DNA of 64,000 bases, taken from the NCBI GenBank assembly GCA_963682175.1, contig OY821788.1, forward strand, positions 15,332,001-15,396,000. Reading direction: 5' to 3'. Positions 3,352 through 53,573 of the stretch are shown piece by piece. The notes under the pieces were generated by a model. It was not told the origin of the DNA. It saw nothing but the letters and a program-made list of their open reading frames with translations, and made no database searches. The translations under genes and the position numbers were made by a program. Position 1 is the stretch's first letter; each line of letters opens with the position of its first letter. Source of the DNA: Triglochin maritima. Taxonomy: Eukaryota; Streptophyta; Magnoliopsida; Alismatales; Juncaginaceae.

Positions 3352-3388
3352 GCTAAAAATACGATTAAGTATAGAATTTAGCTAACAA

Positions 3389-3954: not shown

Positions 3955-4047
3955 CATTAGAGAGAATAGATCCGTTGGGACAAGATTTGATTGGGTTTTG
4001 TGCAAGATACACAAAGCAGAAAATTCGGGCTGCAAATCTGTCCAGAA

Positions 4048-5783: not shown

Positions 5784-7015
5784 TGATGAGAATTAAAATT
5801 TATACCGCAAGTGCACGGCGTCAATGGAGACGTGGCAAATACGGGTCGAACACAAGGAGGGAGAGATTCTGTTTTTAGTGTGATTTTCGATTAAGGAGAA
5901 GAAGGAGAGAAGAATTAAGTTGGTTTTGAGATTTTTGGATTTTAATTATCTAAAGCAAGAAACAAGAACAATTAAAACTAAAATAAGAACAAAGATGTGA
6001 ATTCCGTCGGGTGGAGGTTTAGATTTAAGGTTCAGATTAGAGAATTTAGAAACTTATAATAAATCATATTAGTTATAAAGCATTACATGATAAATGATTT
6101 AACATAAACTCAAGTAATCAAAATATACTAACACGAAATTAAAATAATAACATTCATTCATCTTCTCTTCACCCTAAATCCGTCACCTCCACCCTTTGGA
6201 AGGAGTTAGAAACTCATAGAGGGAGGAAGAAGGGGTCCTTGAGACATTACAAAAGAAAACTAAAAGTAAGAAATAAATGACAGAATTTTATTAATGAAAA
6301 GAAGAATACAAAACTAAGATTAAGAATAAAAACTAACACCAAAGACTAAGGACCCTTCTAACATCGTTCTCGGGTCTATTTATAGTTGCTACAAGGGATC
6401 TAGGTATAATATTGGAAAGTACACGTGTCCAGACACGACTGGACGAAATTGGAGCACACGGATCGACTAGGGGGCGGCGGAATCGCCGCATGGTGTGTGT
6501 GATCTGCGGCGGAATCGCCGCACATCATGCTCTGATTTGGTCCAGATTTTGGTTGAATGTTTATGGTATGATTTGATCCTCCTTTACGCGTCTGGATTGA
6601 TTCTTTCCATTCTTTTGAGCTCCGGATTAATTCCTTCACATATTTGGAGATATACATTGATTTTTCTATATATTTTCTCCAAGATAATAAAAGCTACTCG
6701 TGATTTGCAATTAGGTCCTTGACTTTTTGCAGTTAAGTCCCCGGCTACTTTTGTGCTTAAGTCCTTGTTCTTTTTGCAATTAGGACTTGAATGCTTTTAT
6801 GCTTGGGATGCATTTCCATTCGTAACCCGATAATCTTGAACTTGGTCTTTATGATAGAAATGAGTCTTTTGCATGCGTTTATGCTCGGGATGTGGGTAAA
6901 TTGCATTCAGGTCCCTGTAATCTGTAAATAAGACTAAACACATACCTTAGTAGCATTTATTGATGTAAAAGTAATCTAAATGAAAGACATATGATGCAAT
7001 GTATGCAATGCATCA
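5784..7015 (-). repeat. A1 3' LTR (1232 bp)
   Basis: Plus-strand ends are TGATGAGAAT and AATGCATCA. It aligns with the two LTRs of A2 along its whole length. A minus-strand TATA box (CTATAAATAG) is at 6376-6385. Confidence 0.9.
6474..6521. promoter_or_regulatory. Paired GC-rich inverted motifs upstream of the A1 TATA box
   Basis: GCGGCGGAATCGCCGC occurs at 6474-6489 and again at 6506-6521. The arms GCGGCG and CGCCGC are complementary around GAAT. The pair lies 90 to 145 bp upstream of the TATA box. Regulatory function is inferred from position. Confidence 0.5.
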
Positions 7016-7031
7016 AATACCCCCACACCTA
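7016..7031 (-). other. Polypurine tract of A1
   Basis: Minus-strand TAGGTGTGGGGGTATT directly precedes the LTR start TGATGCATTG. The same tract occurs at 33396-33411 (B3) and 38624-38639 (A2), and in interrupted form at 24270-24285 (B2). Confidence 0.85.
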
Positions 7032-7111
7032 GATTTTGCTAGTCCCTAGCAAAACAGAAGATACGAAAAATAAAAACAGGGAAATCCTAACTCACTTTCG
7101 TAGGAATCACG

Positions 7112-7179
7112 GTTGCACTTAGCATGTGCAACAAGCCTTTAAACCTCCAAGTTTCCTTAGAGGACGAGTTTTGTCTCGT
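7112..7179 (-). promoter_or_regulatory. Three-hairpin RNA module in the A1 3' untranslated region
   Basis: In minus-strand (RNA) order: hairpin I at 7179-7164, ACGAG[ACAAAA]CTCGT; hairpin II at 7163-7144, CCTCTAAG[GAAA]CTTGGAGG, with a GNRA tetraloop; then an 11-nt spacer; then hairpin III at 7132-7112, GTTGCAC[ATGCTAA]GTGCAAC. Hairpins I and II abut. The same module is at 24370-24437, 33497-33564 and 38720-38787 with compensating changes. Confidence 0.75.
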
Positions 7180-8149
7180 GAGGGTTTTCAGTTGACACAC
7201 CCACAAAGTCTTAAATCAACATTCCATTAATAGCTCTTAATATCCCTACCTCAACCTTATACATCTCACTGAGAATTCTTGCATGCTCATTATATAAATC
7301 TAACTCATTAAAAATATGACTTGATCTTTGTTCCTCCAACATTCACACCACTAACCCTTCTACACATGTTTATCACTTGAATTATTTTGCACGCCTCCTC
7401 TGGTGGTGAAGTATCATTCGGATCAACCATGGCATGAATCATTCTTTTAGCTTTGGGCCTTGAGTATTATTATTTTTTTCTTTTCTTTTCTTTCGTGATT
7501 CAACACATTTGCTTTTTGATACTTTTACCCTTTTGCATTTGTGTAGCGAGTTTGGTCGATAATCCCGAGCTGGTAGACTCAAGTTACCGGGTTTCAAGAT
7601 ACCCCTACGGACCAGTGACTCAAAGGCTTGGGCTTTTGTAATCATTTTGCAAAATGTGTTTTCTTCACTTTATTCCTTTATTTTTATTTTTATTTTCCTC
7701 AAGGCTTAATTGCTATTAGAAGTCCACACTTCCTGGTATATTTTCCTCAACCTCTGCTTTTTATCAACCACTTCAAAGATTTGATTCATCCAATTTAAGT
7801 GCATACATGTCTTAAAGGGAAATGAGTTATTTCTTTGGAACTTAGATTTATGTCACAATTTCTACAAGCAGAACTATATAATAAGGAACAAAAACTCAAT
7901 GCAATTTGTACACGGTTTTTCGCAATTCAATCTTAAGCTATGTCATGAAACATTGATGATTTTTCCTTTTTTTATTTTTTTTATTTTTTTATTTTTTATT
8001 TTTAGAAATAAAAGACAGATCTATAGATAAATATATACATAAACACCCCCCACACCTAAATCATGCATTGTCCTCAATGTATGCAAATATAAAGCAAATG
8101 CACTTATTACCTTGATGAACTGCGGTGGAAGGGTGGAATTTGCTCAAAG
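7180..8149 (-). other. A1 3' untranslated region, remainder
   Basis: No coding sequence seen. Homologous to 38788-39761 of A2. T-rich low-complexity runs lie at about 7465-7490 and 7960-8005. The short ORFs here are not conserved. Confidence 0.7.
8062..8083 (-). promoter_or_regulatory. Conserved stem-loop beside an internal polypurine tract (A1)
   Basis: Minus-strand CATACATTG[AGGA]CAATGCATG pairs at eight of nine positions and is followed by a purine tract (GGTGTGGGGGGTGTTT) resembling the terminal polypurine tract. Copies are at 25525-25546, 34621-34642 and 39674-39695. Confidence 0.6.
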
Positions 8150-22871: not shown

Positions 22872-24269
22872 TGTTTAATCGTTTAAACTACCGCAAGTGC
22901 ACGACGTTGGTGAAGACGTGGCAAATACGGGTTGATCCACGGGGAGGAGACAAATCTCTGGTTTGCACGAAGTCAAGTGGCAACAAAAGGGGGGAAGAGT
23001 TTTGTTTATGCTAATCTACTCTACACTAAACTACTAAGAAGAAAATGCAAAGGAAAGCGACTAACGATTACTTCGAACTAAACTAAGAGAACTTAATAAT
23101 AAGCTGTGAATAAGGAAGAGAGAGACCCCTAGGAGGTGGAGTGATTACACACATGCAATAAGATGGTAAGAATGCATTCCAATGGGCACAAGTGGAGGTA
23201 GTGCTTTCACGTTTAGGAAGTGTCTACTTGTCATGGCAAAACCCATCAATTCAATCACTAACCTATTTAATTAACATTCATATACACAAGCTAGTTATTT
23301 CAGAACCTAAACAAGCATGGGAGGTGTCTAAGATTTGTGGCAAAACCCATCAAGTGAAGTATTTTACGCTAACAAGCAAGCATACATTCATATTAATCCA
23401 CACATTTCTAAATAAAGCATTTTCCCATTCTTAATTGCATGTATAAGTATCATCTCCACCCCCAAAGAGGAGTGGTTTTACTCACTAACCATTAAACTAA
23501 CTATTATACTATGATAGGAAAACATATCAACTAAGCCTACTAGATTTAATAAAAGGCAATTAAGCTAAACATGCAAGAACCATAAAAGAAGCAACATAAC
23601 AAGGAAAATTTTATTGATTTCAGACTCACAATACAAGTAGCATCTTCCTACTTCAGTATTTGCTCCAAGGCTCCACTTCAGGTAGGAAGAATAGCCACCA
23701 AGTATGTAGTGCTTACAATATCAGGTGAAGAGTTCTATTTATAGCCATACAATAAGGTAATCCAGGACAATCCCCCGCTATGGGACTAAACACATACCAG
23801 AAATAGACTAAATACACTCTAATACACGACCCGACTAAACCGCATCGGATCCAGAGCAACCGTGACCACCAATCCGCGGTTTCAGACCGCCAATTGGCGT
23901 TCTACAGGGTTTGGATCACGTTGGGCTTTCGTGTGGGCTTTTCTGGAAGGCTTTGTTTATGTTTGTTGCGTCTAATTCAGTTGCTGGAGCTCCGACCCGA
24001 ATAGAATTGCCAAAATACTCCCCATGATGGTATGGAGTTTCTTCATTTGCTCATTGGTCCTTTGGTTTTGCATTTGGGTCTCTCTCTCTTGCATTTTAGT
24101 CCACAACTCTTTCAAATCAGTCCTTTTTCCTGCTTTTAGGCCTTTTATGCTTCTTCTCCTCAAACCTATTTATTTCTGAAATTCAAACATAAAACACATT
24201 ACGTAGCATTGTTTAGGTGAAAGATAACGGATATAAGACACAAATATATGCATGAAATGATGTCAATCA
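22872..24269 (-). repeat. B2 3' LTR (1398 bp)
   Basis: Plus-strand start TGTTTAATCG and end GTCAATCA, followed by the polypurine tract (24270-24285, interrupted: TAGGTGTGTGGGTATT on the minus strand). TATA box at 23735-23746 and the partial palindrome CCGCCAATTGGCG at 23888-23899. Confidence 0.88.
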
Positions 24270-24369
24270 AATACCCACACACCTAACTTTTGCTAGTCCC
24301 GAGCAAAACAAAGAAAGAGAAAAACATACGAAAAACAAGAAATTCTAACTCACTTTCGTAGGAATCACG

Positions 24370-24437
24370 GTTGCACTTAACACGTGCAACAAGCCGTTAT
24401 ACCTCCTTGTCGCCAAGGAGGAGGTGTGTTGTCGCCT
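24370..24437 (-). promoter_or_regulatory. Three-hairpin RNA module in the B2 3' untranslated region
   Basis: Minus-strand order: hairpin I (24437-24422) AGGCG[ACAACA]CACCT with one mismatch; hairpin II (24421-24402) CCTCCTTG[GCGA]CAAGGAGG, eight perfect pairs with a GNRA loop; hairpin III (24390-24370) GTTGCAC[GTGTTAA]GTGCAAC. It aligns with 7112-7179. Confidence 0.75.
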
Positions 24438-25442
24438 GAGGGTTTTCAGCAGATACACCCACAAAATCAGAACAAAGATGCATTATTCAACCTAGCTACA
24501 CGACTCGATGACTCATTTTTTGTCGATCATTAGACGCGGTAATGCTACGGGCCGACTCTATATATGTAATCAGTCCACACACCTAGCCTAATGAATCATT
24601 CGTGAAAGTTAATTAAGGACTAAAGTGAAAGACATGGGCAACCTTAACTTCTGAAAGTGATACATTGTGTAATGTCCATTAAGGTTCTTATTTGACTCTT
24701 TTTTTTCTTTTTCTTTTCTTTGGAGTATTACATTGGTTGGTGTTTGATTCTCCCAGGGTCGGGTTTTGTGCATCATTGCCTGTGAGGACTTACACTATCA
24801 CATACACCTTCCCCCAAATCTCCACATAGGGCGATCCCTACTACCCGTGTAACGGGAGTTCGGTTAGTGCATCCCAACTCAGATGACTAGAGAGCACCAG
24901 GCACTAAGTCCCCTCGGACCTAATTTCCTGACTGATAGGAGCCATACGAGAAGAGAGAACACCACATATTCATTTATCTACATGGGAACCAAAACCCCTA
25001 CACTTACAATTTCACAAAAAGAGTTTAAAGGCCCTTGACTACGACAAACTTCCTTATACTAACAGACACTAATTATTGACTCACTAGGTTCTGGGTGGAC
25101 TTCTTTAATTGTTTGAGTACTAAAACCCTTTGATTACTCGCCCCCTGAGGGAAGGACGGGGTGCATTCTTACGACTCGATAAGACCTAAAGCCAGTATAC
25201 TAGATATCCTAATGCATCATGTTCAAGACAATTTTGGTAGCTTTCTTTTTACTTTGCCTCTCAACGGTTTTGCACATGCTAAACACATGCAAAACCCACA
25301 AAACATTTTCTTTCACAAACACATGAAGATTTTGAAAGAAATGTGAAAATTTTAAGGCACTAGGCAAGTAAAAGAAGACAATTCACCCAAGGATCATGGC
25401 AAGCAGATATATCAATATTAAATATAGCACACTAACATGACC
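24438..25442 (-). other. B2 3' untranslated region
   Basis: No conserved ORF. Homologous to 33565-34650 of B3. It includes a T/C-rich tract at about 24695-24720 and a conserved stretch at 25195-25350. Confidence 0.7.
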
Positions 25443-26929: not shown

Positions 26930-28191
26930 TGACACGACTTCCGCCTCGACCTTTGTCGTGGTCCCTTCCTAGTACGGTTTGAGGCGTTGTCCATTAACTT
27001 TGAACACGTCCCATTCCTTGGATTCTGAATCTCAACCACCCCATGAGGGGAGACGGTTAAAACTATAAAGAGCCTTGACGGGGGGAGACGGTTAAAACAA
27101 TAAAGGGCCTTGACCAACAACTTCAAAGTTTCCCCAGAAACAAGTGGTGGCGAGAGTTATACAACAAGACCTTTTGTCCCACCTCGAAGGTTTTGATTCA
27201 GACCAAGCGGTCGTGAATTTTTTTAGTGCGAGACTTGCAGATCTTGGCTTTCTCATATGCTTCATTTCTCAACTCCTGCAACTCGTTGAGGTCTAACTTG
27301 CGATTGGCACCGGAAACATCAAGACTCATGTTGAAATGTTTGATTACCCATAATGCCCGGTTCTCAAGCTCTACCGGAAGATGGCAAGCTTTGCCATAAA
27401 CTAGCCGGTAGGGGGACATGCCAAGGTCGGTTTTAAATGCAGTGCGGAAAGCCCACAATGCATCATTAAGCTTGACTGACCAATCTTTCCTTGAAGCATT
27501 AACCGTTTTCTCAAGAATTTGCTTGAGTTGACGGTTGGAAATTTCCACCTGGCCACAGGATTGAGGACGATAAGGTGTGGCCAACTTGTGCGTGATGGAA
27601 TATTTCCTCAACACTGCATTACTAGAAAGAAGCACTCTCATTATCCGCAGAAAGAGAAGAATTAAGCTAGCGCGCCTCAAGGGATCGGTTCACAAAGTGT
27701 GTACCCCGATCACTTATGATACAACGAGTTGTCCCAAACCTCGCAAAGATGTGTTCTTTTAGAAACTTGATCACAACCTTGCAGTCGTTAGTGCGAGTGG
27801 GGATTGCTTCCACCCAATTTGACACATAATCAACCGACACAAGAATGTAAGTGTGACCATGGGACACGGGGAAATGACCCATGAAGTCAATTCCCCAAAC
27901 ATCAAAGATGTTGACCACTAAGATAGGATTGAGTGGCATCATATCACGTCTGCCAATGCGGCCCACACGTTGGCACCTATCTCATGCTTTGCAAAATGCA
28001 AAAGCGTCTTGGAACAACGTGGGCCAGTAAAAACCGCATTGGAGCACTTTGGCACCGGTTCTCTTGGCACCGAAGTGCCCACCACATGCCTCCTTATGGC
28101 TAAAGGACAAGACACTCTGAATCTCGTCGTTAGGAATGCACCTTCTTATGATTTGATCGGCACAATACTTAAATAAGTAGGGATCATCCAA
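26930..28191 (-). pseudogene. Integrase of B2, broken
   Basis: The zinc-binding H2C2 region is at 28191-27982 (SHKEACGGHFGAK, then CGFYWP), with a stop just after CKA. The catalytic core has its first Asp in WGIDFMG and its second in ISDRGTHF (27966-27667), and Glu in [11 protein letters not shown] (27680-27198). The core is split because the reading frame changes near 27670-27680. The C-terminal tail, matching the Athila region around VNGQRL, continues with stops and a small duplication near 27040-27100 down to about 26930. Integrase would insert element cDNA into nuclear DNA; this copy cannot. Confidence 0.88.
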
Positions 28192-28227
28192 TAGAAGTGC
28201 TTGACTAACAACTTGAACTTTGCTTTC

Positions 28228-29829
28228 TCAATGTGTCCAATGAGCCGACACCTCCCCGGTTGCTAAATAGTTCACAATGTCAGCGAACCAGGGAGGTGAA
28301 GCTATTGCCATAACGTTCTCATCAGGGAAGAACTCGTTCACCGGTGGATCCGGTGAAAGATCAACTGGGATGCGAGAGAGGTGATCTGCCACGACATTCT
28401 CGCATCCCTTCTTGTCCCGTATTTTGAAGTCGAACTCTTGCAACAACAAGATCCAACGCAGGAGACGTGGTTTCGCATCCTTTTTAGACAAAAGGTAGCG
28501 GAGAGCTGAGTGATCAGTGTAGATGATGACGTGCGACCCCATGAGGTACTGGCAAAATTTTTTCAACGCAAATATGATCGCGAGGAACTCTTTCTCAGTA
28601 ACGGAGTAGTTGAGCTGAGCATCATTGAGAGTACGACTTGCATAGTAGATCACATGAGGCAATTTGTCGACTTTCTGACCCAAAAATGCTCCAACTGCAT
28701 AGTCAGATGCATCACACATCAGCTCGAATGGTAGAGTCCACACCAGTGCCTTAATAATAGGAGCGGAGGTCAACTCACGCTTCAGAAACTCAAACGCAGT
28801 CATGCACTCGGGTGTGAACTCAAAAGAGGTACCTTTAGCAAGCAAGCTCGTCAAGGGGCGAGCTATCTTGCTGAAATCCTTAATAAACCTCCGGTAAAAT
28901 CCGGCATGTCCAAGGAATGACCGGATTTTGTTTACCGAGGTGGGTGGCGGAAGCTTAGATATAAGCTCAATCTTTTCCCTATCCACCTCGATACAATCAC
29001 GAGATACCACGTGACCCAAAACGATGCCTTTTGTAACCATTAAATGACACTTTTCCCAATTAAGGGCTAAGTTCGTTTCTGAACACCTCTTGAGAACAAG
29101 GCTCAGGGGGTGCAAGCACTCATCAAAGGAGGTGCCATGAACCGAGAAATCATCCATGAAAATCACAAGGAAGTTCTCGACCATATCGGAAAAGATACTC
29201 AACATTCAATGTTGGAATGTTGCCGGTGCATTGCATAGTCCAAAAGGCATCCGTCTATAGGAAAACGTCCCAAAAGGATAGGTGAACGTGGTTTTCTCCT
29301 TGCCTTCAGGGGCGACTGAGATTTGATTGTACCCCGAATAACCATCAAGGAAACAATAATAGGCGTGCCCAGCGAGTCTCTCCAACATTTGGTCGTTGAA
29401 AGGTAGAGGGAAGTGGTCCTTACACGTGATGGCATTCAACTTCCTATACTCAATGCAAACTCGCCACACAGTTTGAAGTCATGTGGGTACAAGCTCATTG
29501 TTGCCATTCTGGACAACAGTTATACCCGACTTCTTGGGCCCAACCTGGACAGGACTTACCAAAGTACTGTCCGAAATGGGAAAAATGATGCCATGATCTA
29601 AACATTTGAAGATCTCTTTCTTAACTACTTATGTCATGGCTGGATTTAAACGCCTCTGTGGGTCGCGACGTGGTCGTGCCTCATCCTCCCTAAAGATGTA
29701 GTGTTTCACGACGTCGGGACTTATCCCTTTAATGTCCTTCAAGGACCACCCAATGGCTGATTTGTGCTCCTTTACGACTTGAATCAGACGTTCTTCCTGA
29801 TCACCAGTCAACAACGATGAAATAATCAC
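28228..29829 (-). pseudogene. Reverse transcriptase and RNase H of B2, broken
   Basis: Minus-strand frame with RT motifs in order: YRKLNAIT, QISVAPEGKEKTTF, YRRMPFGLCNAPATFQ and the catalytic box VIFMDDF near 29145. RNase H follows with [14 protein letters not shown], the [11 protein letters not shown] region and [10 protein letters not shown]. The frame is conserved but interrupted by stops near 29627, 29482, 29207 and 28226. It is the only reverse transcriptase in the window. Neighbours are protease upstream and integrase downstream, the Ty3/gypsy order. Confidence 0.92.
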
Positions 29830-30131
29830 CGGAAATGACCTATCGGGACCAAGAAAAGCGTGTTTCAGTTCCTTAGGGAGTTCTTTAAGCTCAATTGTGG
29901 GTGGTTCCTCAAGGCAAGGCGTGATATCTAGCTCGAGATGTAAGATAGGAGGAGCTCACATGTACTGAACAACATGCACATCATTGCTCAACTCGCCCCA
30001 TCCTCTTCATGATTGGAATCATCCATGATGTAAGCACTTAGATTTTCATGAATCAGGGGGTACTCTTCTTCTATTTCTTCTTCCAAGTCCCGGATAAGAT
30101 TAATTTCCTTGGGGTCCTCGAAAGATGCCGG
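29830..30131 (-). pseudogene. Protease-RT linker of B2
   Basis: Readable with frame changes: an acidic stretch (RDLEEEIEEEYP) followed by LEEPPTIELKELP, typical of the sequence just before Athila reverse transcriptase. Confidence 0.6.
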
Positions 30132-31861
30132 CTACTTACACATATTGAACACATGGAATGTCGCGTTCAAGTTCCCGAACGACAATTTCATGAGTCCAGT
30201 ACGACAATTGATCAAGGCATTTGACGTTGCCAAAAAAGTTCTACCCAAAATCAATATAATCTGAGAGTGGGTAGCCTTGATTGGTTCAGTCTCAAGGACG
30301 ACAAAGTCAACATGAAATTTGAAATCACCGACCTTCATTAGGACATCTTCAATGACCCCCAACGGTACTTTGATCGAACAATCAACCAATTGCAAAGTTG
30401 TTTTCGTAGGCTTGAGCTCGCCTAGACTTAATCGTTGATACACAAAAGCTGGTAAGAGGTTAACCGCCGACCCTAGATCTAGCAAGGCATTATTAATACG
30501 AGAGTCCCCAATGATACATGTAATTGTTGGACTACCTGGGTCCTTCAATTTTACGTATGTTGAGTTTGAAATGATCGAGCTCACATTAGCCGCCAAAAAG
30601 GCTTTGCTAGGGACATTGGTTTTCCTCTTAGTCGTACAGAGATCCTTCAGGAATTTTGCATAGGGAGGTATTTGTTGAATCATGTCTAACAAAGGAATGT
30701 TGACATTCACTTTCTTAAATATCTCCAGCATTTTATCCACATTGTCACTCTGCTTCTTAGACAACCTACTATGATAAGGAGCTTTTGGTAGGTATGTCTT
30801 ATGCGGACCCAGAGAAGGAGGCGTTGGTGTATTACACTCACCCTCGGCCTCTTTCTCACCATCATTGCCACAAGGGGGCTGCACAGATGGATTTACTGGC
30901 AAGGAAACATGGTTGTTGACCTGCTTCCCATTTATCAGGGTCACAATGGCATTGACGTGGTCTATAGGTTCTTTCATGTACTTCACGTTCCTCCCCTATG
31001 GTCTTCAACTTGCATTTTGCATGTTCGAGTGAAGTTGAGCACGGGGGTTAGCCACATGTTAGCTAGGCATACTCCCTCTCTCTCATGTACAGACTGAACC
31101 AATTGGCCCATCTGAAGCTCGAGAGATTTCATGGTCTGCTGATTCAAAGTGAGGACTTGACTCGTGGACGACATAAAGTTTTTTACAGAGTTCTCAAGTC
31201 CACGAGTTAAGTTCTCAAGCGAATTAAACTGGGTTTCCAAGTTGTTAGAATTTGGGAAACCTGGTGGGTTGGTGTTTTGACTTTGGGGTGGCTGATAAGA
31301 CTGTGAATGCATGGGAGGTTGGTGTGGTCGGTTAGGCGGTCGAGAAAAGTTTGAAGGACCACCTGGGGCATTGTTATGGTTCCATAAAAAATTAGGGTGG
31401 TTCCTCCATCTAGGGTTATATGATGATGAATATGGGTCATTCCTAGATCTATCATAGATGACATTAACATGTTCCATCTCAGGAGGAATGGATGCACACT
31501 AACCCCCTATATGACCTATCCTACCACATAAATGACAGGGAACTTGACCAGATGCGGATACATGTGACACATCGTGCTGGTTTTGGAGCTCAATCGAATC
31601 CATATGGCGCATTAAGGCCGTCATGCGTGCTTCGGTGGCCGTAGTGGTATCAATGGTACATGCGGCACCCGATCTAGTCGAGCTTGTATTTGCGATCCTC
31701 GCTCCTATGCTAGATGATGCTGGTGGTTCCCTCACACTCTCCCATTGCATGGTTTTCTCAACGAGGTCATCTAGGAAAGCGCATGCCTCCCTTTCCTTTC
31801 CTAGGAACTCTCCTTGACACATGGACTCAAGGAGCGTTCGGGATGGGATGGGAAGACTGAT
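30132..31861 (-). pseudogene. Gag C-terminal part and protease of B2
   Basis: From the 5' side: gag residues SRTLLESMCQGEFL, a damaged zinc knuckle (CHLCGRIGHIGG then a stop near 31497), an Asn/Pro-rich linker, a frame change near 30985, the conserved IPLLDMIQQIPPYAKFL block and the protease LLDLGSAVNLLP, ending with LSFGNLNATFHVFN. The active site uses DLG, as Athila proteases do. The N-terminal gag is missing because B3 inserted at 31862. Gag packages the RNA and protease would mature the polyprotein. Confidence 0.88.
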
Positions 31862-33024: not shown

Positions 33025-33496
33025 TCTATCGGTTCTGGATCCTTCTCGAATTTGTTGTAGGCTTTTCTGGATGTCTATGTTGGTCTTTGATGCATATATT
33101 TCGTTTATTGGAGCTCCGACCCGAATTGAATTTTAAAAATACTCCCCATGATGGTGTGGAGTTTTCTGTTTTGCTCTTTGGTCCTTCGGTCTTACGTTCA
33201 GGTCCTTCTCCCATGCATCTTAGTCCCCAGGTATCACAACTCAGTCATTTTTCCCTGCTCTTGGGTCCTTTTATGCTTCATCTCTTCAAACCTATTTATT
33301 TCTGAAATTCAAACATAAAACTCGTCACGTAGCATTACTTAGGTGTAAGATAATCGATATAAGATACAAATATAAGCATTAAATGATGTTAATCAAATAC
33401 CCCCACACCTAAGTTTTTTCTAGTCCCGAGCAAAACAAAAAAAGAGAAAAGCAAACGAGAAACAAGAAATCCTAACTCACTTTCCTAGGAATCATA

Positions 33497-33564
33497 GTTG
33501 CACTTAGCACGTGCAATAAGCCGTTAAACCTCCTTGTTGCCATGGAGGAGGAGTGTTGTCTCCT
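33497..33564 (-). promoter_or_regulatory. Three-hairpin RNA module in the B3 3' untranslated region
   Basis: Minus-strand order: hairpin I (33564-33549) AGGAG[ACAACA]CTCCT, perfect; hairpin II (33548-33529) CCTCCATG[GCAA]CAAGGAGG with one A-A mismatch and a GNRA loop; hairpin III (33517-33497) TTGCAC[GTGCTAA]GTGCAA, six pairs. Confidence 0.75.
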
Positions 33565-34954
33565 AAGGGTTTTCAGCGGATATACCCACAAAATCCGAAC
33601 AAGATGCATTATTCAATCTAGTCTCTCGACTCGTTGGAAATATTTTGTCGATCATTGGACACGGTAATCCTACGGGCCGACTCTATAAGGTAATCAGTCA
33701 ACACCTAGCCTAATGAACCATTCGTGCAAGTGATACAAAGTGTAAGGTCCATTAAGGTTCTTATTTGCATTACCAATTTTTTTTCTTTTTGTTTCTTTTC
33801 TCATTTTTTTCTTCTTTTTTCTTTTTATTAGGTGGAGCTTCATTCTCCCAGGGTCAGGTTTCGTTCATCATTGCCCATGAGGACTTACACTATCACTACA
33901 CCTTTCCCCAAATCTCCACATAGGGTAATCCCTACCACCCGTGTAACGGGTGTTCGGTAGGCGCATCCCAAGTCTGATGACTCGAAAGCACCAGGCACAA
34001 AGTCCCCTCAGACCTACTTTCCCGAGTGATAGGAGCCGTGCGAGAAGAGAGAACATTTACTCACTTATTTCTTATCTACATATGAACCAAAACCCCTACA
34101 CTTAATGTCTCACAATAAGATTAAAAGGGTCCTTGACTACAACAAACTTCCTTAAGTTAACAGACACGAATTATTGACTCACTAGGTTCAGGGTGAACTT
34201 CTTTAAATGTTTGAGCACTAAAACCCTATGATTACTCACCCCCAAGGGAAAATTGGGGTGCATCCTTACGACTCGATAAATCCTAAAGCCACTGCACTAG
34301 ATATCCTATTGCATCAAGTTCAAGACAATTTTGGGAGCTTTCTTTTTACTTTGCCTCTCAACGGTTTTGCACATGCTAAACACACGCAAAACCCAGAAAA
34401 CATTTTCTTTCGCAAACACATGAAGATTTTGAAAGAAATGTGGAAATTTTAAGGCACTAGGCAAGCAAAAGAAGACAAGTCACCCAAGGATCATGGCAAG
34501 CAGATATATCGATATTTAATACAACACACTAACATGACCCTAACAATGCAAACAAAAGAAACAAAATCCAAAGAAAAGACTCGACTATGTACACACGTAA
34601 AACACCCCCCACATCTACTTCATGCATTGTCCTCAATGAATGCGAGAAAGATACTACATGGAATTATGCAATGAAACATGAAAGATCTCACCAACGTGAA
34701 GTACAAAGGGAAGTGCATGGCTATGTTGATGGACACAACCCGAATTCCCTCAAAAACCTATGAGATGCTAAAGAAGGGATACAAATTCGTGAAAGAACTG
34801 GGGGCCAAATACACAAGGGTTGGAGCCCACAACAATCAATGTTCACTGAAGGAGTCTTTTATTGTACTTCTTATTTTCTTTTTTTATTTTCTTTTTCTTT
34901 CTTTTTTTTATTTTTATATAACTATGTACAAACATAAGTTCCCATCTTCATTTG
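33565..34954 (-). other. B3 3' untranslated region
   Basis: No conserved ORF; homologous to 24438-25442. T-rich runs at 33775-33830 and 34850-34915. The AGGA stem-loop is at 34621-34642. Confidence 0.7.
34621..34642 (-). promoter_or_regulatory. Conserved AGGA stem-loop (B3)
   Basis: Minus-strand CATTCATTG[AGGA]CAATGCATG next to a purine tract ending GTGGGGGGTGTTTT. Confidence 0.6.
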
Positions 34955-37420: not shown

Positions 37421-38623
37421 TGATGAGAATTAAATTTATACCGCAAGTGCACGACGTCAATGAAGACGTGACAAGTACGGGTCGAACACAAGGAGGGAGA
37501 GATGTTGTTAATTTTGTGATTTTTGATTAAGGAAGAAAGAGAGAGAAATAATGTTGGTTTGAGATTTTTTGTTTTTTATATATCTAAAGCGAGAACAACA
37601 AAAGAAGAAACTAAAAAGAAAACAAATATGGATGGGAGTCCAGCGGGTGGAGGTTTAGAAATCGGGTTTAGATTAGAGAATTCTAAAACTTATAATAAAT
37701 CACATTAGTTATAAAGCATTACATGATAAATGACTCAACATAAACTCAAGTAATCAAAATATACTAACACAAAATTAAAATAATAACTTTATTCTTCTTC
37801 TCATCACCCTAAATCCGTCACCCCCACCCTTTGGAGAGAGTTAGAAACTCATGGATGAAGGGAAGGAGAATGGGTCCTAGAGAAACTACAAAAGAAAACT
37901 AAAAAAACAAGAAATAAAAGAACAGAATTTTATTACTAAAATTTGGAACAAAAACTAAGGACCCTTTACAACATCGTTTCGGGGCTATTTATAGTCGATA
38001 TAAGGGATCCCAATATATAAAAGGAAAGTACACGCGTCAATACAACATTGGTAAAAATTTGAGCGCACGTATCAACTTTTGTGCGGCGGAATCGCCGCAA
38101 TTTGTACATGAGGTGCGGCAGAATCACCACCTTTTTGGCTCAGAATCGACCTGGATTTTTCTTGTGTGTTTATGGTATGTTTTAGCTGTCATTTGCGTGT
38201 CCGGATTAATTATTGCATATCTTTGGAGATCCGAGTTAATTTCTTCATATATTTGGAGATTCAAATTGATTTTTCTCTAGACCTTCTCCAAAATAATCTT
38301 TTGGTTTTCGTAATTTGCAGTGGGGTCCTCGGCTTTTGCAATTAAGTCCCTGACTACTTTTGTGCTTAAGTCCCTGATATTTTTGTAATTATGTATTTGA
38401 ATGCTTTTATGCTTGGATGAACTTCCATTTGAGTCCCGATAATCTTGACTTGGTCTTAATGATAGAAATGAGTCTTTTGCACGCATTTATGCTCGGGATA
38501 TGGGTAATTTGCATTCTGGTCCCTGTATTATGTAAATAAGACTAAACACATACCTTAGTAGCATTTATTGATATAAAATTAATCTAAATGAAAGACATGT
38601 GATGCAATGTATGCAATGTATCA
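37421..38623 (-). repeat. A2 3' LTR (1203 bp)
   Basis: Aligned with 43637-44806 and 5784-7015. TATA box at 37985-37994. The GC-rich inverted motif is at about 38085-38100, with a decayed second copy beside it. Confidence 0.92.
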
Positions 38624-38719
38624 AATACCCCCACACCTAGATTTTGCTAGTCCCTTGCAAAACAAAATATAAGAAAAATGAAAACAGGGAAATCCTAACT
38701 CACTTTCGTAGGAATCACG

Positions 38720-38787
38720 GTTGTATTTAGCATGTGCAACAAGCCTTTAAACCCCCAACTTTCCTTAGAGGACGAGTTTTGTCTCGT
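38720..38787 (-). promoter_or_regulatory. Three-hairpin RNA module in the A2 3' untranslated region
   Basis: Hairpin I (38787-38772) ACGAG[ACAAAA]CTCGT; hairpin II (38771-38752) CCTCTAAG[GAAA]GTTGGGGG, GNRA loop with G-U pairs and a G-G closing mismatch; hairpin III (38740-38720) keeps five of seven pairs. Confidence 0.7.
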
Positions 38788-39761
38788 GAGGGTTTTCAGT
38801 TGACACACCCACAACGTCTTAACTCTACATTTCATTAATAACTCTAAATATCTCCACCTCAACCTTATACATCTCACTTAGAAGTCTTGCATGCTCATTA
38901 TATAAATCTAACTCATAAAGAATCTGACTTGGTCTGTGTTCACATCACTAACCCTTCTACACATGTTATCACTTAAATTATTTTGCACGCGCTCCTCTGG
39001 TGGTGAAGTATCATTCGGATCAACCATGGCATGAATCATTCTTTTAACTGGATCCAGCTCGTGATCCATAAGCACCAGTTGCATCCCTTCCAGTTCCATG
39101 CCGGTATCTTAAGTATTTCTTTTCGTGATTCAACACATTTGCTTTTAATGACACTTTTACCCTTTTTGCATTCGTGTAGCGAGTTTTGTCGATAATCCTG
39201 AGCCAACAGACTCAAGTTACCGGGTTTCAAGATACCCCTACAGACCAGTGACTCGAAGGCTTGGGCTTTTGTAATCATTTTGCAAGATGTGCTTTCCTCA
39301 CTTTATTCCTTTTTTTTACTTTTATTTTCCTCAAGGCTTAATTGTTATTAGAAGTCCATGCTTCCCGGTATATTTTCCTCAACCTCTGCTTTTTATCAGT
39401 CACTTCAAAGATTTGATTCATCCATTTTAAGTGCATACATGTTTTAAAGGGTAATGGGTTATTTCTTTGTAACTTAGATTTATGTCACAGTTTCTACAAG
39501 CAGAACTATATAATAAGGAACAAAAACTCAATGCAATTTGTACTCGGGTTTTGGTGGTTCTATCTTAAGCTATGTCATGGAACATTGAATTTATTTTATT
39601 TATCTATGTTTTTTTATTTTTTTAAGAATATATATATAGATAGATAGATACATAAACACCCCCACACCTAAATCATGCATTGTCCTCAATGTATGCAAAG
39701 ATAAAGCAAATGCACTTATTACCTGTGTCAACTGTGGTGGAGGGATTGAATTTGCTCAGAG
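38788..39761 (-). other. A2 3' untranslated region
   Basis: Homologous to 7180-8149. The AGGA stem-loop is at 39674-39695 beside an internal purine tract. No conserved ORF. Confidence 0.7.
39674..39695 (-). promoter_or_regulatory. Conserved AGGA stem-loop (A2)
   Basis: Identical to the A1 copy at 8062-8083. Confidence 0.6.
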
Positions 39762-42371
39762 TCAACCATGGTCAGAACTGGATTGAATGACACCATGTTG
39801 GTGCATGTATCCATTTGAATTGTTCCCTGTGTTGCAATGAGAGTCCTGAGTCACAGATTCCACACCCCTCACATGTATTTGTTCTCTTATTTGCTCGAGT
39901 GATGGTGGGTGTGTAGAAGAATTATTCCCCTTTTTCTCACTTCCTTTTTGATTTTGTGATGATTTATTTGATTCAGAAATCTTATAGATACGCGATCTCA
40001 TCACAACATCACTTTGATTGCATACTATTTCTGGCTCATTATCAACATGAAAGATATTAAATTCAGCCTTTAAGTTTCCAAAAGATAGTTGCATGAGCCC
40101 ATTTCGACAATTTATCAAAGCTTCAGAAGTGGCTAAAAAGGGTCTGCCTAGTATTACAGGGATTTGTCTCTTAGGATCGACAACAGGTTCAGTGTCTAGA
40201 ACGACAAAATCCACTGGGTAAATGAAGTCACCAACCTTAATCAAAACATCCTCTACTATACCTCTTGGTTTCTTAATAGAGCAATCAGCAAATTAAAGAG
40301 TTGTCTTAGAGGGTTTTAGTGGACCAAGGTTCAGTTGCTCATAGACAGAGTACGGGAGTAAGTTAACCCTAGCACAAAGGTCTAGAAGGACTTTGTTGAT
40401 AAAGTATCTCCTATCGCACAAGAAATTGTGGGACACCGAGGGTCCTTATACTTTATAGGAGACGAGTTTGACAGAATAGAGCTTATATTTGCAGTTAAGA
40501 ATGCCTTCTTTGGTACATTCGTTTTTCTCTTTTTAGTGCACAGATCTTTTAAGAATTTAGCATAAACTGGTATTTGATGAATCATATCTAGGAGTGGAAT
40601 ATTCACCTTAACTTGCTTAAATACTTCCAAGATTTTCTCCATTTGTGCACTTGAGCTCTTCTTGAGTCTATTGGGGAATGAGGCTTTAGGAACATAGACT
40701 CGCTCAGGTTGAGCTATAGGTTCAGGTTGAGTAGGTGGGTTGGGCTTTTCAATTTGGACTTCAGGTTCAATGGTCAGGTCACATGTGGGTGCTTGACAGC
40801 TAGATTGATTAGGAGTTCTAGGATTTACCACATTGTTATCAACTTGTTTACCAGACCGTAATGATACAACTGCATTTATTTGTTGGAACGGTCCTTCCTC
40901 ATGAACCATTTGAACCGGTCTAGGGTTGTTATTTCCTGAAGGTGGTTGATAAGGCTGATATTGATTATTAGATCTTGGGTTTACCTCAGGTTGACTTGGA
41001 AACTGACCATTTTCTCTTTCACCTACTATTTGTGCTAGTTGCCTGACTTGTGTTTCTAACCTTTGGAAGGATTGGTTGGTTGTTTGCATAAAAGTCTTAA
41101 CCAAATTTTCCAAGCTCGTCAATCTAACATCATAATCTCCATTGTTACTAAACCCAGATGATGTATTATTTTGGTTATACGGGTTTGGTTGTTGTCTAGG
41201 AGGTTGACCTTGTTGGTTCCAGGAAAGATTGGGATGATTACGCCAACCCGGGTTATAGGTTGATGCGTATGGGTCATTTCTAGAATAGTTAAAGGTGGCA
41301 TTAACTTGTTCCAAGTCCGCATAATCCTCCATTATATGACCAGTCTGACCGCATCTAGAGCAAGGGATAGAAGACGCTTGATTCACTAGGGGTAGGGTTT
41401 TTTGCTCTAGACTTTCCATTCTACGCATAAGGGTAGCTAGTTTTGCTTCAGCAGCTACGGTAGCATCTACAGCTAAGACACCTGGTTTGGGTTGACTTGC
41501 TTTTCTCGATCCAATACTCGTGTTAATCGATGCTCTAGCATTGTCCCATTGCATACTGTTTCGGCTAAATCCTCAAGAAAAATCCAAGCATCATTCTCAT
41601 TTTTGGACATAAACCTTCCTTGGCTTACAGATTCTAGCATAACCCTAGATGTGGGTGTCAATCCCTCATAGATAATTTGGCACAATTGCCATCTTGGAAT
41701 TCCATGATGAGGGCATTGGGTCAACAGACTTTTAAATCTTTCTAAATAGGATAGAACAGCTCGCCCTCAGATTGAACGAATGCAACAATTTCATTCCTAA
41801 TCCTAATAGTCTTATGGTTGGGGAAATATTTCTTTAAGAAAACTTGAACAAACTCGGCCCAACTCCTAATAGATCTTTCGGCTAGACTATATAGCCATTT
41901 CTTAGCGTCATCCTTCAGTGCTAGAGGCACGAATTGCAGACGCACTGCCTCCTCAGAAATATGCTGGTATTGCATAAGAGAGAAGATTTCCTCAAATTCT
42001 CTAAGGAAGAGATAAGGGTCTTCCTTAGAGGTGAACTTGGGGAACATACTCCTGTATTGTGCCTTCAGTTCGAAGTCGCGACCCGGTATGACGGGCATAA
42101 CGATGCATGATGGCTGAGCAGCCATCGTTGGGTAGCACCGATCCCTCAGAGTCATAGGTGGTGCAACAGGTGGGTCCACTACATTCTCACCTATTGGATC
42201 TGGGTGAGGTGGTGCAACAGGTGGATTGGGGCTAAGCTCCAGACAGGAATCTAGATGAACTCGTGAGAGTCGATTACTCAAGTCCCAAATCCAAATCTGA
42301 GTGCACCGGTTTGAATCAATTTTTGAATTCAAATTCGAAATTTCAATTCCAAAGTCAAATTCAAGAATCAA
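39762..42371 (-). pseudogene. Gag-protease frame of A2, broken
   Basis: Gag domain at 42371-41742 (YLFLREFEEIFSLMQY, then KKWLYSLAERSIRSWAEF); remainder of gag at 41724-41473; zinc knuckle at about 41370-41330 (CSRCGQTGHIMEDY, last Cys replaced by Tyr); Asn/Gln/Pro-rich linker; IPLLDMIHQIPVYAKFL block; protease region with DLC in place of the usual DLG; then ILGRPFLATSEALINCRN, LSFGNLKAEFNIFH and a C-terminal tail. At least three frame changes (near 41740, 41550 and 40400) and a stop near 40295 make it non-coding. Gag would assemble particles and protease would mature them; there is no pol after it. Confidence 0.88.
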
Positions 42372-43612
42372 TTGATTTTATTTATTTATTTATTTATTAA
42401 AAAAAATCAAAAATGGAAACAAACAATAGAATGGGGAAAGATGAGAAAAGAATCCTAATCTAGAGAATTGAGGTGAGAAGAGAAAGAAGACTCAGATGAG
42501 AAGGGAAACTTAACTCCAAAGATAGAAAAGAGGGTCGGTCAGAAATTTCCTAAGCATGCACGGTTCAAACAATCCTAGACCTAAGGGAGCCTAATTCTAT
42601 ACGACTCCTAACTGGTTGAGTTGAATTTGCTCGCTTGATTCACCTCCCTCACTAATCAAACCAACTTGGCCAGGCAGTGTATAGCTATTGGGGGCGCTTC
42701 CAACAGAGTCGGTGCCAATTAGACAACCACTTCGCTTGGAAGACTTACGTCAACACAAAAACACTTTCTAGACACCAAATCAAATTCGATCAGCTTCAAG
42801 TCATAGCAAGTCAAACCAATTTTCTCCTTAATTGAGTCTGAGTCCTTAGGGGCCAATGTCTAATTGATTTTAATTTTAAGGCTTGGGTGACACTTTGGAA
42901 TTGTGATTTGTGGGCCACAGAAGGGTGATGAAATCCCCACCGTATCTTTTCCTACGGAGTTGCCCTTAAGATAGTTTAACTTAAATCTAGCAAAGATAGT
43001 CAAACATTGGTCTTTTTAGTGGGGGGCAATTGCAAGGTTGTATGCAAACTAGATTATATGCTTAAATGCAATCGAAAAAAACTGCGCACGTACCTTGCCT
43101 CCAGCACTCTTCAACAAAAATTAATTTGCAAGAATTTAGAAAGAATAATGCAAACAAAACACTATATGATGCATGCACTAAGTCCTTCTAATTTTGGCAA
43201 TTTTTAGGTCAGAGTTGAATTATTGCCACTTATGGAATTTTGCCCTAACACGTGCAGTTCTACGAAAAGGAACTTTTCGAAAATTAAGATTTTACGAGAA
43301 AGGCAAGAAGAGTTACCTCCTTAATGCTCAGACGGGTTCGCCGCCCGCTTTAGAAAATTCCCAGATGCTCTACGCGTCCACCCAGAGATGACACCAGAAA
43401 AAATTGAAGCCCAGATGCTTCAGTTGTGCAGCGGATGCGCCGTAGATTCTTCTTTTTGTGCGGCGATTTCGCCGCCCTTCTTCCTCAGAGTGTGCCCGGA
43501 TTTCGCCGCGCACTCTGTTGTCTCCTGAAACGTAAACCCAAATAGTTAGATCGCGCACATGATTAACAGGATAGAATCGAAATCACAACAAATAAACAAG
43601 ATCTTCGTCACC
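42372..43612 (-). other. A2 5' leader
   Basis: Long untranslated leader between primer site and gag. It shares the words GATGAAATCCCCACC and GGCCAATGTCTA with the B leaders. No conserved ORF. Confidence 0.7.
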
Positions 43613-43630
43613 TCCCCGGCAACGGCGCCA
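43613..43630 (-). other. Primer binding site, tRNA-Asp (A2)
   Basis: Minus-strand TGGCGCCGTTGCCGGGGA, 18 bases complementary to the 3' end of plant tRNA-Asp, six bases from the LTR. This is the primer type used by Athila elements. Confidence 0.92.
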
Positions 43631-43636
43631 AAAACT

Positions 43637-44806
43637 TGATGAGAATTAAATTTATACCACAAATGCACATCGTCAATGAAGACGTGACAAGTACGGGTCG
43701 AACACAAGGAGGGAGAGATGTTGTTATTTTTGTGATTTTCAATTAAGGAAGAAAGAGAGAGAAATAATGTTGGTTTGAGATTTTTGGTTTTTATATATAT
43801 AAAGCGAGAACAACAAAAGAAAAAACTAAAAAGAAAACAAATATGGATGGGAGTCCAGTGGGTGGAGGTTTAGATATCAGGTTTAGATTAGAGAATTCTG
43901 AAACTTATGATAAATCACATTATTTATAAAGCATTACATGATAAATGACTCAACATAAACTCAAGTAATCAAAATATACTAACACGAAATTAAAATAATA
44001 ACTTTATTCTTCTTCTCATCACCCTAAATCCGTCACCCCCACCCTTTGGAGAGAGTTAGAAACTCATAGATGGAGGGAAGGAGAAGGGGTCCTAGAGAAA
44101 CTACAAAAGAAAACTAAAAAAACAAGAAATAAAATAACAGAATTTTATTACTAAAATATGGAACAAAAACTAAGGACCCTTTAGAACATCGTTTCGGGGC
44201 TATTTATAGCCGATACAAGGGATCCCAATATATAAAAGGAAAGTACACGCGTCAATACAACATTGGTAAAAATTTGAGCGCACAGATCAACCTTTGTGCA
44301 GCGGAATCGCCACCTTTTTGGCTCCGAATCGACCCGGATTTTTCCTATGTGTTTATGGTATGTTTTAGCTGTCATTTGCGCGTCCGGATTAATTATTACA
44401 TATCTTTGGAGATCCGAGTTAATTGCTTCATATATTTGGAGATTCAAATTGATTTTTCTCTAGAACTTCTCCAAAATAATCTTTTGGTACTCGTAATTTG
44501 CAGTCGGGTCCTCGGCTTTTGCAATTAAGTCCCTGACTACTTTTGTGCTTAAGTCCCTGGCCTTTTTGTAATTATGTATTAGAATGCTTTTATGCTTGGA
44601 TGAACTTCCATTTGAGTCCCGATAATCTTGACTTGGTCTTTATGATAGAAATGAGTCTCTTGCACGCATTTATGCTCGAGATATGGGCATTTTGCATTCA
44701 GGTCCCTGTATTATGTAAATAAGACTAAACACATACCTTAGTAGCATTTACTGATATAAAATTAATCTAAATGAAAGACATATGATGCAATGTATGCAAT
44801 GCATCA
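43637..44806 (-). repeat. A2 5' LTR (1170 bp)
   Basis: Matches 37421-38623 except for a deletion of about 33 bp in the GC-rich inverted motif near 44295-44315, and scattered substitutions. TATA box at 44200-44209. Confidence 0.92.
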
Positions 44807-47194
44807 AGAGCTTCATGATATCATTTCTACAATTAATTAAGGCGTTGGAAGTTGCCAGAAATGGTCTACCCAAAATCAAAGGTATTTGAGAGTGGGTGTT
44901 CGCAATAGGATTGGTATCGAGGACAACAAAATCGACTGGAAATATAAAATCTCCAACTTTGAGAAGCACGTCCTCGATAATCCCATTTGGAATACGAATG
45001 GATCTTTCCGCCAATTGGAGGGTGATCTTAGTTGGTTTCAATTCTCCCAAATTTAACTATTGATAAGCAGAAGATGGGAGGAGGTTGACCGCTGATCCTA
45101 AATCAAGCAAAACATTCCTCATGCTATTGTCCCCTATCGTACACTGAATAGTAGGACACCCAGGGTCCTTGTATTTTGTGTAGGCGGGATTGGACAAAAG
45201 TGAGCTTACATTTGCAGCCAAGAATGCTTTCTTAGGAACATTGGTCTTCCTCTTGGTTGTGCAGAGATCCTTCAACACTTTGGCATATTGAGGTATTTGT
45301 TGGATGACATCCAACAAGGGGATATTAACCTTAACTTGCTTAAACACCTCTAATATCTTGTCCATTGTGTCACTCTGCTTTTTAGTTAACCTACTTGGAT
45401 AAGGAGCTTTTGGCAGGTAGGTTTTCTGCAGTGCCTGAGAAGGAGGCGTTGGTGTATTACCCTCACCCTCAGCCTCTTCTTCACCACCATTCCTACTAAG
45501 GGGCTGCATAGATGATGGTGGGTGTGGCAAGGAAATGTGATTGTCAACCTGCTTTCCATTCCTTAAGGTCACAATGAAATTGACATGGTTAACAGGTTCC
45601 TCCACATGGTTCACTTGCCTCCCCCGAGGTACCACATTCTCATTTTGCATGTGTTGCTGCTAGTACATGCGGGTGTTAGCCTCAGGCTTGCTAGGTAAAG
45701 ACCCTCTCTCTCTTTCATGCACAAATTGAGCCAATTGGCCCATCTGAAGCTCTAGAGATTTGATGGTCTGCTGATTTGAAGTGAGAACTTGACTTGTGGT
45801 TGATAAAAGAAAATTCATTGAGTTTTCAAGTCCACGAGTCAAGGTCTCAAGCGAATTAAATCGGGTTTACATATTATTGGAATTTGGGAAACCCAATTGA
45901 TTGGTGATTGGTGCTTGGGGTGGCTGATAAGATTGTGCATGCATGGGAGGTTGGTATGATTGGTTAGATGGTCGAGAGGAGTTTGAAGGACCACCCGTGA
46001 CATTATTTTGGTTCCATGAAAAATTGGGGTGGTTCCTCCATCCAAGATTATAAGATGATGAGTATGGGTCATTCCTAGCTCTGTCATAGATGGCGTTGAC
46101 ATGTTCAATCTCAGGAGGAATGGACGAACACTCACTTTCTACATGACCTATCCTACCACATGCATGACAGGGAACTCGACCAGATGTAGACATGTGAGGT
46201 GCACTTTGTTGGTTTTGGAGCGCAATCGAATCCATACGGCGCATTAAGGCCGCCATGTGTGCCTCCGTGACTGTAGTGGTATCGATAGCAAATGCGGCAC
46301 CCGAGCTAGTCGGGTTTGCATTCGCGATCCTCGCTCTTATAATAGTTGATGCAGGTGATTCCCTTACACTCTCCCATTGCATTGTTTTCTCAGCAAGGTC
46401 TTCTAGGAAAGCTCATGCCTCCCTTTCATCCTTTCCTAAGTACTCTCCTTGACACATGGACTCAAGGAGCGTCTGGGACGGGATGTAAAGACCCTCGTAA
46501 ACAATCTGACAAAGACGCCAGAACTCAATGCCATGGTGAGGGCATGAGGATAGTAGCTCCTTGAACCTCTCTAGATATGCATGAAATGTCTCCGTCTCAA
46601 GTTGATAGAACAAATTGATTTCGTTCCTCAATCTTTGAGTCTGATGATTTGAAAAGTATTTCTTGAGGAATGCAGATTGAAACTTATCCCATGTCCTAAA
46701 GGCATTCGCCTAGTTTCTGTACAACCAATTCTTGGCGTCATCTTTCAGCGCAAAGGGGACAAGCCTAAGATGGATGGAGTCTGTGCTAAGTTGTTGCAGC
46801 TTGAACACAGCACAGACCTCCTCAAATTCCCTGAGAAAGATATAGGGGTCCCCTTTCCCAGTGAAGTGAGGGAGCATGGCAATAAACTGAGGCTTAACCT
46901 CAAAATGGTCCCCATTTGCCTCTGCAATACGATGCATGAGGGTAGAGCGGTACGGCTCGGGTAATATCGATCACGTAGAGGTATGGGAGCGACAACTAGA
47001 AGCACAGGTGGAATAGGTGGGTCCAGCAACTGCTCCTCCACACGGAAATGAGCAGCCATTGAACCAAGACTGTGTGTGACATGAGAGGAGGAAGGCATCG
47101 AGAAATCGACTACCGAAGCCAGATTGACAACGCTCCTCATCAAACAACCCCTCTCGTCTCGTGTCCATGAAAGCATGCACAAAGGTTCACACAC
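44807..47194 (-). pseudogene. Gag-protease frame of B3 (5' portion)
   Basis: Gag starts near MAAHFRVEEQLLDPP (about 47060), with a frameshift near 46925. From 46937 to 44807 a single frame is kept and broken only by stops, near 46708, 46411, 45865, 45658 and 45055. Domains in order: gag (YIFLREFEEVCAVF, SCPHHGIEFWRLCQ), an intact CCHC knuckle (CHACGRIGHVESEC), linker, IPLLDVIQQIPQYAKVL, protease LLDLGSAVNLLP, then ILGRPFLATSNALINCRN. The reading frame is cut after MKL by A2 and resumes at 37420. Decay by point mutation rather than indels sets it apart from A2. Confidence 0.9.
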
Positions 47195-53571: not shown

Positions 53572-53573
53572 AA

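Follow-up and report, generated by a model that had tools for sequence, protein, structure and literature searches.

The DNA analysed here is a window of 64,000 nt from Triglochin maritima (assembly GCA_963682175.1, contig OY821788.1, 15,332,001-15,396,000; positions below are window positions). It holds four Athila-like long terminal repeat (LTR) retrotransposons of two families, A (A1 and A2) and B (B2 and B3), and a pair of short hairpins, I and II, stands in the 3' untranslated region (UTR) of each of them. The first-pass annotation of this DNA had located the four pairs exactly, and all are on the minus strand, which is the sense strand of the elements. These hairpins are part of a larger conserved non-coding block of about 200 nt, which that annotation did not mention and which ends at the terminal polypurine tract (PPT) and the 3' LTR. 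In the RNA strand, the order of the block is hairpin I, hairpin II, hairpin III, a 31-nt motif, hairpin IV and the PPT (Table 1). By the coordinates, 112-117 nt separate the end of hairpin II from the PPT.

The elements differ in what they encode. The comparison was made by tblastn with the open gag-pol frame (2004 amino acids) of a related Athila-like plant element, found on a contig called L004 here. B2 matches this frame from gag through integrase, A2 matches only its gag-to-protease part, and A1 and B3 do not match it; that is, three of the four hairpin-carrying elements show no reverse transcriptase (RT) or integrase match in this comparison. The pol piece of B2 has RNase H matches in Pfam and an RT match just under the Pfam cut-off. 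Its integrase piece has no Pfam match itself, PF00665 is present in many of its listed relatives, and the best of these reach 73% identity among the 120 matches listed. The A2 piece at 41742-42371 has a Pfam gag match, and the part after it is presumably a protease, judging from its position and motifs. The block is retained in the elements without detectable RT or integrase.

Table 1. Features of the four Athila-like elements (window positions unless stated otherwise; bp, base pairs).
Feature	Element	Position	Strand	Remarks
Hairpin I	A1	7164..7179	(-)	5 bp, 6-nt loop ACAAAA
Hairpin I	A2	38772..38787	(-)	
Hairpin I	B2	24422..24437	(-)	C.A mismatch at pair 4
Hairpin I	B3	33549..33564	(-)	
Hairpin II	A1	7144..7163	(-)	8 pairs, one G-U; GAAA loop
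Hairpin II	A2	38752..38771	(-)	7 pairs, two G-U, closing G.G mismatch; GAAA loop; unformed in longer folds
Hairpin II	B2	24402..24421	(-)	8 Watson-Crick pairs; GCGA loop
Hairpin II	B3	33529..33548	(-)	7 pairs, A.A mismatch at pair 6; GCAA loop
Hairpin III	A1	7112..7132	(-)	7 bp, 7-nt loop; sequence conserved, without covariation
Hairpin III position	A2	38720..38740	(-)	two C.A mismatches
Hairpin III	B2	24370..24390	(-)	
Hairpin III	B3	33497..33517	(-)	6 bp; outer pair A.C
31-nt motif	A1	7081..7111	(-)	most conserved part of the block; no significant fold
Hairpin IV	A1	7034..7054	(-)	directly before the PPT
Terminal PPT	A1	7020..7031	(-)	
Conserved 3' block as aligned	A1	7012..7215	(-)	takes in the first 4 nt of the LTR
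Conserved 3' block as aligned	A2	38620..38823	(-)	
Conserved 3' block as aligned	B2	24266..24473	(-)	
Conserved 3' block as aligned	B3	33392..33600	(-)	
Internal PPT-like site with hairpin	A1; A2; B2; B3; L004	8020-8083; 39632-39695; 25483-25546; 34579-34642; 8940-8980 (on L004)		
3' LTR	A1	5784..7015	(-)	
3' LTR	B2	about 22870-24270	(-)	
3' LTR	B3	about 31856-33395	(-)	flanks B2 too
Element, LTR to LTR	A2	37421..44807	(-)	gag and protease-like part only; primer-binding site (PBS) for tRNA-Asp at 43630
Coding region	B2	27081..31645	(-)	matches to RT, RNase H and integrase in this element alone

Between the families, the block of A1 is 82-83% identical to those of B2 and B3, and the block of A2 is 78-81% identical to them, depending on the scoring. 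The LTRs of A1 and B2 are alignable over 76 nt only, the 3' UTRs of A2 and B2 beyond the block align only around an internal PPT-like site (75 nt), and the gag regions of A2 and B2 show 65% identity over 621 nt and 75% over 100 nt. Within family A, 193 of 204 positions of the block are identical, against 1045/1186 upstream of it and 981/1187 in the LTR, and none of the 204 other windows compared reaches the block. The corresponding values within family B are 186/208, 871/1033 and 598/790.

A coding role of the block was rejected. One sense frame is open through most of it up to a conserved stop in the four copies, yet it is preceded by a stop in every copy. All three sense frames contain stops across the 300 codons upstream of the conserved stop (4/4 copies), and the codon changes in the hairpins alter amino acids.

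Concerning hairpins I and II, standard pairs are found at the 13 pair positions in A1 and at 12 of 13 in each of A2, B2 and B3, which makes 49 of 52 cells. They are also the fastest-changing hairpins of the block, with 17/26 stem letters kept from A1 to B2 and 20/26 from A1 to B3. Three pairs are altered on both sides and are still paired: pair 2 of hairpin I is C-G in A and G-C in both B copies, pair 7 of hairpin II is A-U in A and U-A in both B copies, and pair 6 of hairpin II changes from A-U to U-A in B2 only. The first-pass annotation had reported the compensated change in hairpin I, the two A-U/U-A reversals between A1 and B2 and the hairpin I loops (ACAAAA in A, ACAACA in B), and all of them were found again here. 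It had also described hairpin II as always having 20 nt, an 8-bp stem and a GNRA loop; the length and the loop (GAAA, GAAA, GCGA and GCAA) hold in the four copies, but the stem has 7 pairs in A2 and B3.

Two explanations of this pattern do without selection. In the first, recombination spread the block between the families, and an ancestral palindrome left the pairing behind as a relic. For distant Athila families such recombination has been documented (PMC2410132), and recombination homogenises the non-coding regions of pararetroviruses (PMC5491270). However, the block exceeds its flanks in conservation within A and, more weakly, within B, where 22 of 149 windows equal or surpass it, and the stem letters have diverged since then with the pairing kept, as those of a relic would not do; this origin is quite improbable. 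In the second, one arm of a short palindrome serves as the model for the other through template switching, so that mutation alone produces the compensation and no function is needed. A single event of this kind could indeed explain the two reversed pairs that lie side by side in hairpin II of B2. Nevertheless, visual comparison shows neither of the B hairpins to be the A hairpin inverted, changes occurred in hairpin I as well, and the GNRA pattern was retained in the loops of hairpin II, which leaves template switching as a very improbable cause.

Several folding tests were directed at chance. When the 36 nt were folded alone in the sense strand, hairpins I and II formed back to back in the four copies, and 0 (A1), 8 (A2), 3 (B2) and 0 (B3) of 200 dinucleotide shuffles each folded as well. 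In single-sequence folds of 108 nt, hairpin I was present in the four copies with 4-5 of its 5 pairs. For columns 37-72 of the alignment, column shuffles preserving the pattern of agreement reached the consensus energy in 0/3000 cases and at least three doubly changed pairs in 6/3000. Shuffling of the whole block by conservation class never reached its fold energy (0/500), and its consensus fold gave -44.9 in the sense strand versus -33.5 in the other strand. Random placement of the same number of changes kept the pairs with P = 0.0013 for B2 (9/26 changed), 0.011 for B3 (6/26) and 0.35 for A2 (2 changes), values that are not mutually independent and that refer to a structure picked from the same data.

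The bare geometry is not rare. A GNRA loop with at least 4/5 and at least 7/8 pairs is matched exactly four times in the real window, by these four copies, and 1-6 times in each of six Markov-simulated 64-kb windows. Its conservation at one homologous place is not chance, because none of the 3000 column shuffles reached the consensus energy and because a two-hairpin template slid along the block finds 49/52 paired cells at its proper position, the runner-up among 173 offsets having 38.

Besides the commonness of the geometry in simulated sequence, a number of results weigh against a structure of this kind. Over hairpins I and II taken together, A2, B2 and B3 each carry one mismatch, and the hairpin III position of A2 does not fold. 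Hairpin II appears in three of the four 108-nt folds, A2 being the exception, and in folds of the whole block (204-209 nt) it is again formed in A1, B2 and B3 and absent in A2. Hairpin I is complete in these whole-block folds in B3 only, with 3/5 pairs in A1, 4/5 in A2 and 0/5 in B2. The preference for the sense strand almost disappears in the central 108 columns (-28.2 versus -27.5), and when columns 37-72 are removed the energy of the remaining block is reached by 18/200 shuffles.

The covariation had been called strong in the first-pass annotation, and this grade could not be maintained. The four copies come from two families and amount in effect to one deep split. The RNAalifold covariance term is unfavourable, 417 of 500 shuffles being at least as good, and 156/500 shuffles of the four-helix structure reach its number of pairs changed on both sides, although the doubly changed cells and the covariation score in the four helices are each reached by only 3/500. 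The covariation in hairpins I and II is therefore suggestive only, given four copies from two families and two contaminant contigs as the only other plant DNA searched. Regarding all these data, the hairpins are probably a real RNA structure that has been under selection. This agrees with the broader claim of the earlier annotation, which stands: a conserved, probably folded non-coding RNA feature near the PPT in the 3' UTR, common to two families and to elements with and without pol.

The other parts of the block behave differently from hairpins I and II. From A1 to B2 and B3, the identity is 19/21 in both cases for the hairpin III stretch, 20/21 and 19/21 for hairpin IV, and 30/31 and 28/31 for the 31-nt motif; no covariation was found in hairpins III and IV among the four copies. 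The T-rich linker before hairpin IV (15/26 from A1 to B2 and 14/26 to B3) is less conserved than hairpins I and II, and so are the first 36 columns in the case of B3 (27/36 from A1). The conservation of columns 161-209 (hairpin IV and the PPT), of the 31-nt motif and of the first 36 columns looks like conservation of sequence, since shuffles fold as well in 468/1000, 197/1000 and 86/1000 cases, respectively.

A second PPT-like site is located upstream of the 3' UTR in the four elements, as is typical of Athila. It is preceded by a hairpin (CATTG AGGA CAATG; CATTGAGGACAATG in A1, A2, B2, B3 and L004) that echoes hairpin IV and the PPT at the 3' LTR, and GGAC stands at the hairpin apex before both the terminal PPT and the internal site. 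No copy of hairpins I-III is present at the internal site, and these hairpins are therefore not simply part of every PPT. As a separate observation, the A1 LTR starts with an inverted repeat (TGATGCA ... TGCATCA, 6992-7015) just past the PPT.

These observations bear on the possibility that the whole block, hairpins included, serves plus-strand priming, with structure near the PPT steering RNase H to the right cut, as has been proposed for the inverted repeat of Sireviruses (PMC2829016). Such a role would suit a block that ends at the PPT with hairpin IV directly before it, and also the presence of a hairpin with a GGAC apex before each of the two polypurine sites. However, more than 110 nt lie between the PPT and hairpins I and II, and the internal site lacks these two hairpins; a priming role of the whole block is unlikely.

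The block could also be an RNA export or stability element like the CTE, RTE and MTE of animal retroelements, by which full-length RNA leaves the nucleus. The position in the 3' UTR and the multi-hairpin form fit this type, the RTE being located at the 3' end as well, and copies without pol would need export too. On the other hand, no Rfam family matches: there were no matches above the curated threshold in the window, and a permissive search of the A1 and B2 regions gave one sub-threshold BsrC match in the A1 region (E 0.72) and none in the B2 region. Export is regarded as distinctly unlikely.

Other roles were considered for the block. Dimerisation by kissing palindromes, one of the functions suggested in the first-pass annotation, is not borne out, as the loops of hairpins I and II contain no palindrome of 6, 8 or 10 nt; a CACGTG palindrome is found at hairpin III in B2 and B3 only. 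A 5'-3' cyclisation element was rejected for A2, the copy in which it was looked for, since the best duplex between the 3' block and the 5' region (-69.5) lies within 60 shuffles (mean -66.9, sd 4.2, extreme -78.4). Between the four blocks and the body of tRNA-Asp, the longest complementary runs were 13, 13, 9 and 13, with means near 10 and maxima of 13-18 in 40 shuffles each, so they do not exceed the shuffles. A precursor of small RNAs was rejected too, because stems of only 5 and 8 bp do not suffice for one. In this respect, siRNA854 of Athila6 depends on RDR6 and was not accepted as a microRNA by the authors (PMC3276544).

The reading favoured here, to which a probability of roughly 0.45 is given, is that of a cis-acting 3' RNA domain recognised in trans, in which hairpins I and II tolerate changes of sequence but conserve their shape. 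It takes up the packaging or recognition of non-autonomous RNAs that the first-pass annotation had suggested. The domain, of about 200 nt and comprising hairpins I, II and III, the nearly invariant 31-nt motif, hairpin IV and the PPT, would occur once in each genomic RNA, immediately before the 3' LTR. It would fold in the cell, and most likely Gag nucleocapsid or RT, encoded by the elements and acting in trans, would recognise it, select the correct template RNA by it and keep hold of this RNA close to the 3' end. Reading in trans is suggested by the retention of the non-coding block in elements without polymerase. There could also be a division of labour, in which hairpin IV and the PPT would prime the plus strand and hairpins I-III would mark the 3' end of the RNA, most likely for Gag or RT, since a separate hairpin precedes the internal PPT-like site while hairpins I-III are missing there. 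The structure is ordinary in kind, and its function we infer. Packaging or template selection may rank first as the step served, priming second and export third, an order that the present data do not separate.

A bolder version of this reading would see in hairpins I-III an address label, read by the coat or polymerase of a single autonomous plant retrotransposon to recognise the RNAs of several families, including those without pol. The packaging or template-selection signal would then be at the 3' and not the 5' end and would be kept by shape, not by sequence; this is speculative and rather improbable. The favoured reading has to face the fact that known retroelement packaging signals are found mainly at the 5' end. 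Furthermore, in the Athila relative Diaspora the pol stop is 128 bp before the PPT and no similarity was found for that stretch (PMC1142308), and such a short gap would not fit the block as found here. In any case, a block common to pol-bearing and pol-less elements provides a concrete, removable candidate for the mark that helper proteins read on pol-less RNA, and a covariance model could be used to look for the domain across plant genomes.

The covariance model that the first-pass annotation had proposed as a check was built from the central 108 columns. It recovers its four source copies and finds no other credible match in the window, L004 or L005, the three sequences searched (three matches at E 1.8). 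The contigs L004 and L005, which share 99.7% identity over 9 kb, come from the bacterial assemblies of Solirubrobacter sp. CPCC 204708 and Geminicoccus harenae CPCC 101083 and are probably contaminating plant DNA in both. Searches of them did not find the block, which is no test of its absence as no terminal PPT or LTR was recognised there. Among viral contigs no relative was found, the three DNA matches (L001-L003) having unrelated surroundings, and a plasmid search with the B2 pol piece gave 3 records with identities of at most 39%.

The block probably occurs outside this window, because a 39-amino-acid open reading frame (ORF) on an ENA contig, P0121, matches its accidental sense frame and also ends in KVS (E 6.4e-5; one candidate). 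The antisense frame of the block, also with one candidate, gave no match at E 10. Hairpin II may occur outside the window as well: the codons of P0121 allow 8/8 of its pairs, as do those of 18/400 random peptides, and a GNRA loop with 7 pairs, as do those of 6/400, while at most 3/5 pairs of hairpin I are kept in register.

Regarding the surroundings of the block-bearing elements, the Athila-type tRNA-Asp primer site after the 5' LTR was found in A2 only, as an 18-nt PBS that we take to be the complement of the 3' end of plant tRNA-Asp. Beside the LTR at 31856-33395 that precedes B2, no tRNA-Asp primer site with up to two mismatches was found. B3 and B2 seem to have this LTR in common, in the order LTR-internal-LTR-internal-LTR (22870-33600). 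The gag-protease part of a further element lies at 44808-46964, and this element was probably interrupted by the insertion of A2, since the match stops at 44808, exactly at the 5' LTR of A2. Positions 1-5040 (partly) and 49763-64000 are occupied by a tandem array with a unit of 3811 bp and a 487-amino-acid ORF in three copies; it presumably has tRNA-Met-like primer sites, judging from a motif.

No description of these hairpins was found in the open-licence literature among the matches listed. The hairpins in the available part of an Athila paper (PMC11410651) are introduced RNA interference constructs. The available part of the Diaspora paper contains no occurrence of stem, hairpin, palindrom or inverted repeat (PMC1142308), and that of a survey of the Retand region between pol and the 3' LTR contains none of hairpin, stem or secondary structure (PMC11963269).

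Sireviruses, of the Ty1/copia type, offer a likeness in the stem-loop at their PPT. They have a conserved PPT stem-loop, several PPTs and conserved linker motifs, and guidance of RNase H has been proposed for them (PMC2829016). Their inverted repeat has its left arm next to the PPT and its right arm inside the 3' LTR (PMC2829016), whereas here both arms of hairpins I-IV are wholly upstream of the PPT, in elements of the Ty3/gypsy type, so the Sirevirus arrangement is not the one present in these elements. An extra PPT has been described in Athila4 and Calypso (Wright and Voytas 2002, as cited in PMC2829016), and the second PPT-like site of A1, A2, B2 and B3 resembles it. As a group, Athila elements are told apart from Tat by the lack of an extra RNase H domain. 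In Ty3, the genomic RNA has been mapped by SHAPE and the PPT lies in a paired region of lower probability (PMC11381356).

The animal RTE (IAP) and MTE (musD) are, as is proposed here, folded cis-acting RNAs of LTR elements (PMC12786077); they differ in that the block has no Rfam match and that the host belongs to another kingdom. The TIPIRT pseudoknot and kissing hairpins of Ty1 are at the 5' end and have complementary loops (PMC5454406), whereas the loops of hairpins I and II are not palindromic. Athila families without pol have been documented. In Arabidopsis, Pol is missing from 70% of the potentially active copies, which encode Gag or Env (PMC2410132), and the lack of RT and integrase matches in A1, A2 and B3 fits such families. 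Ty1 also has hairpins in its genomic RNA, and there a helper mobilises a mini-element that keeps the 5' and 3' terminal sequences, including the 3' PPT (PMC5454406).
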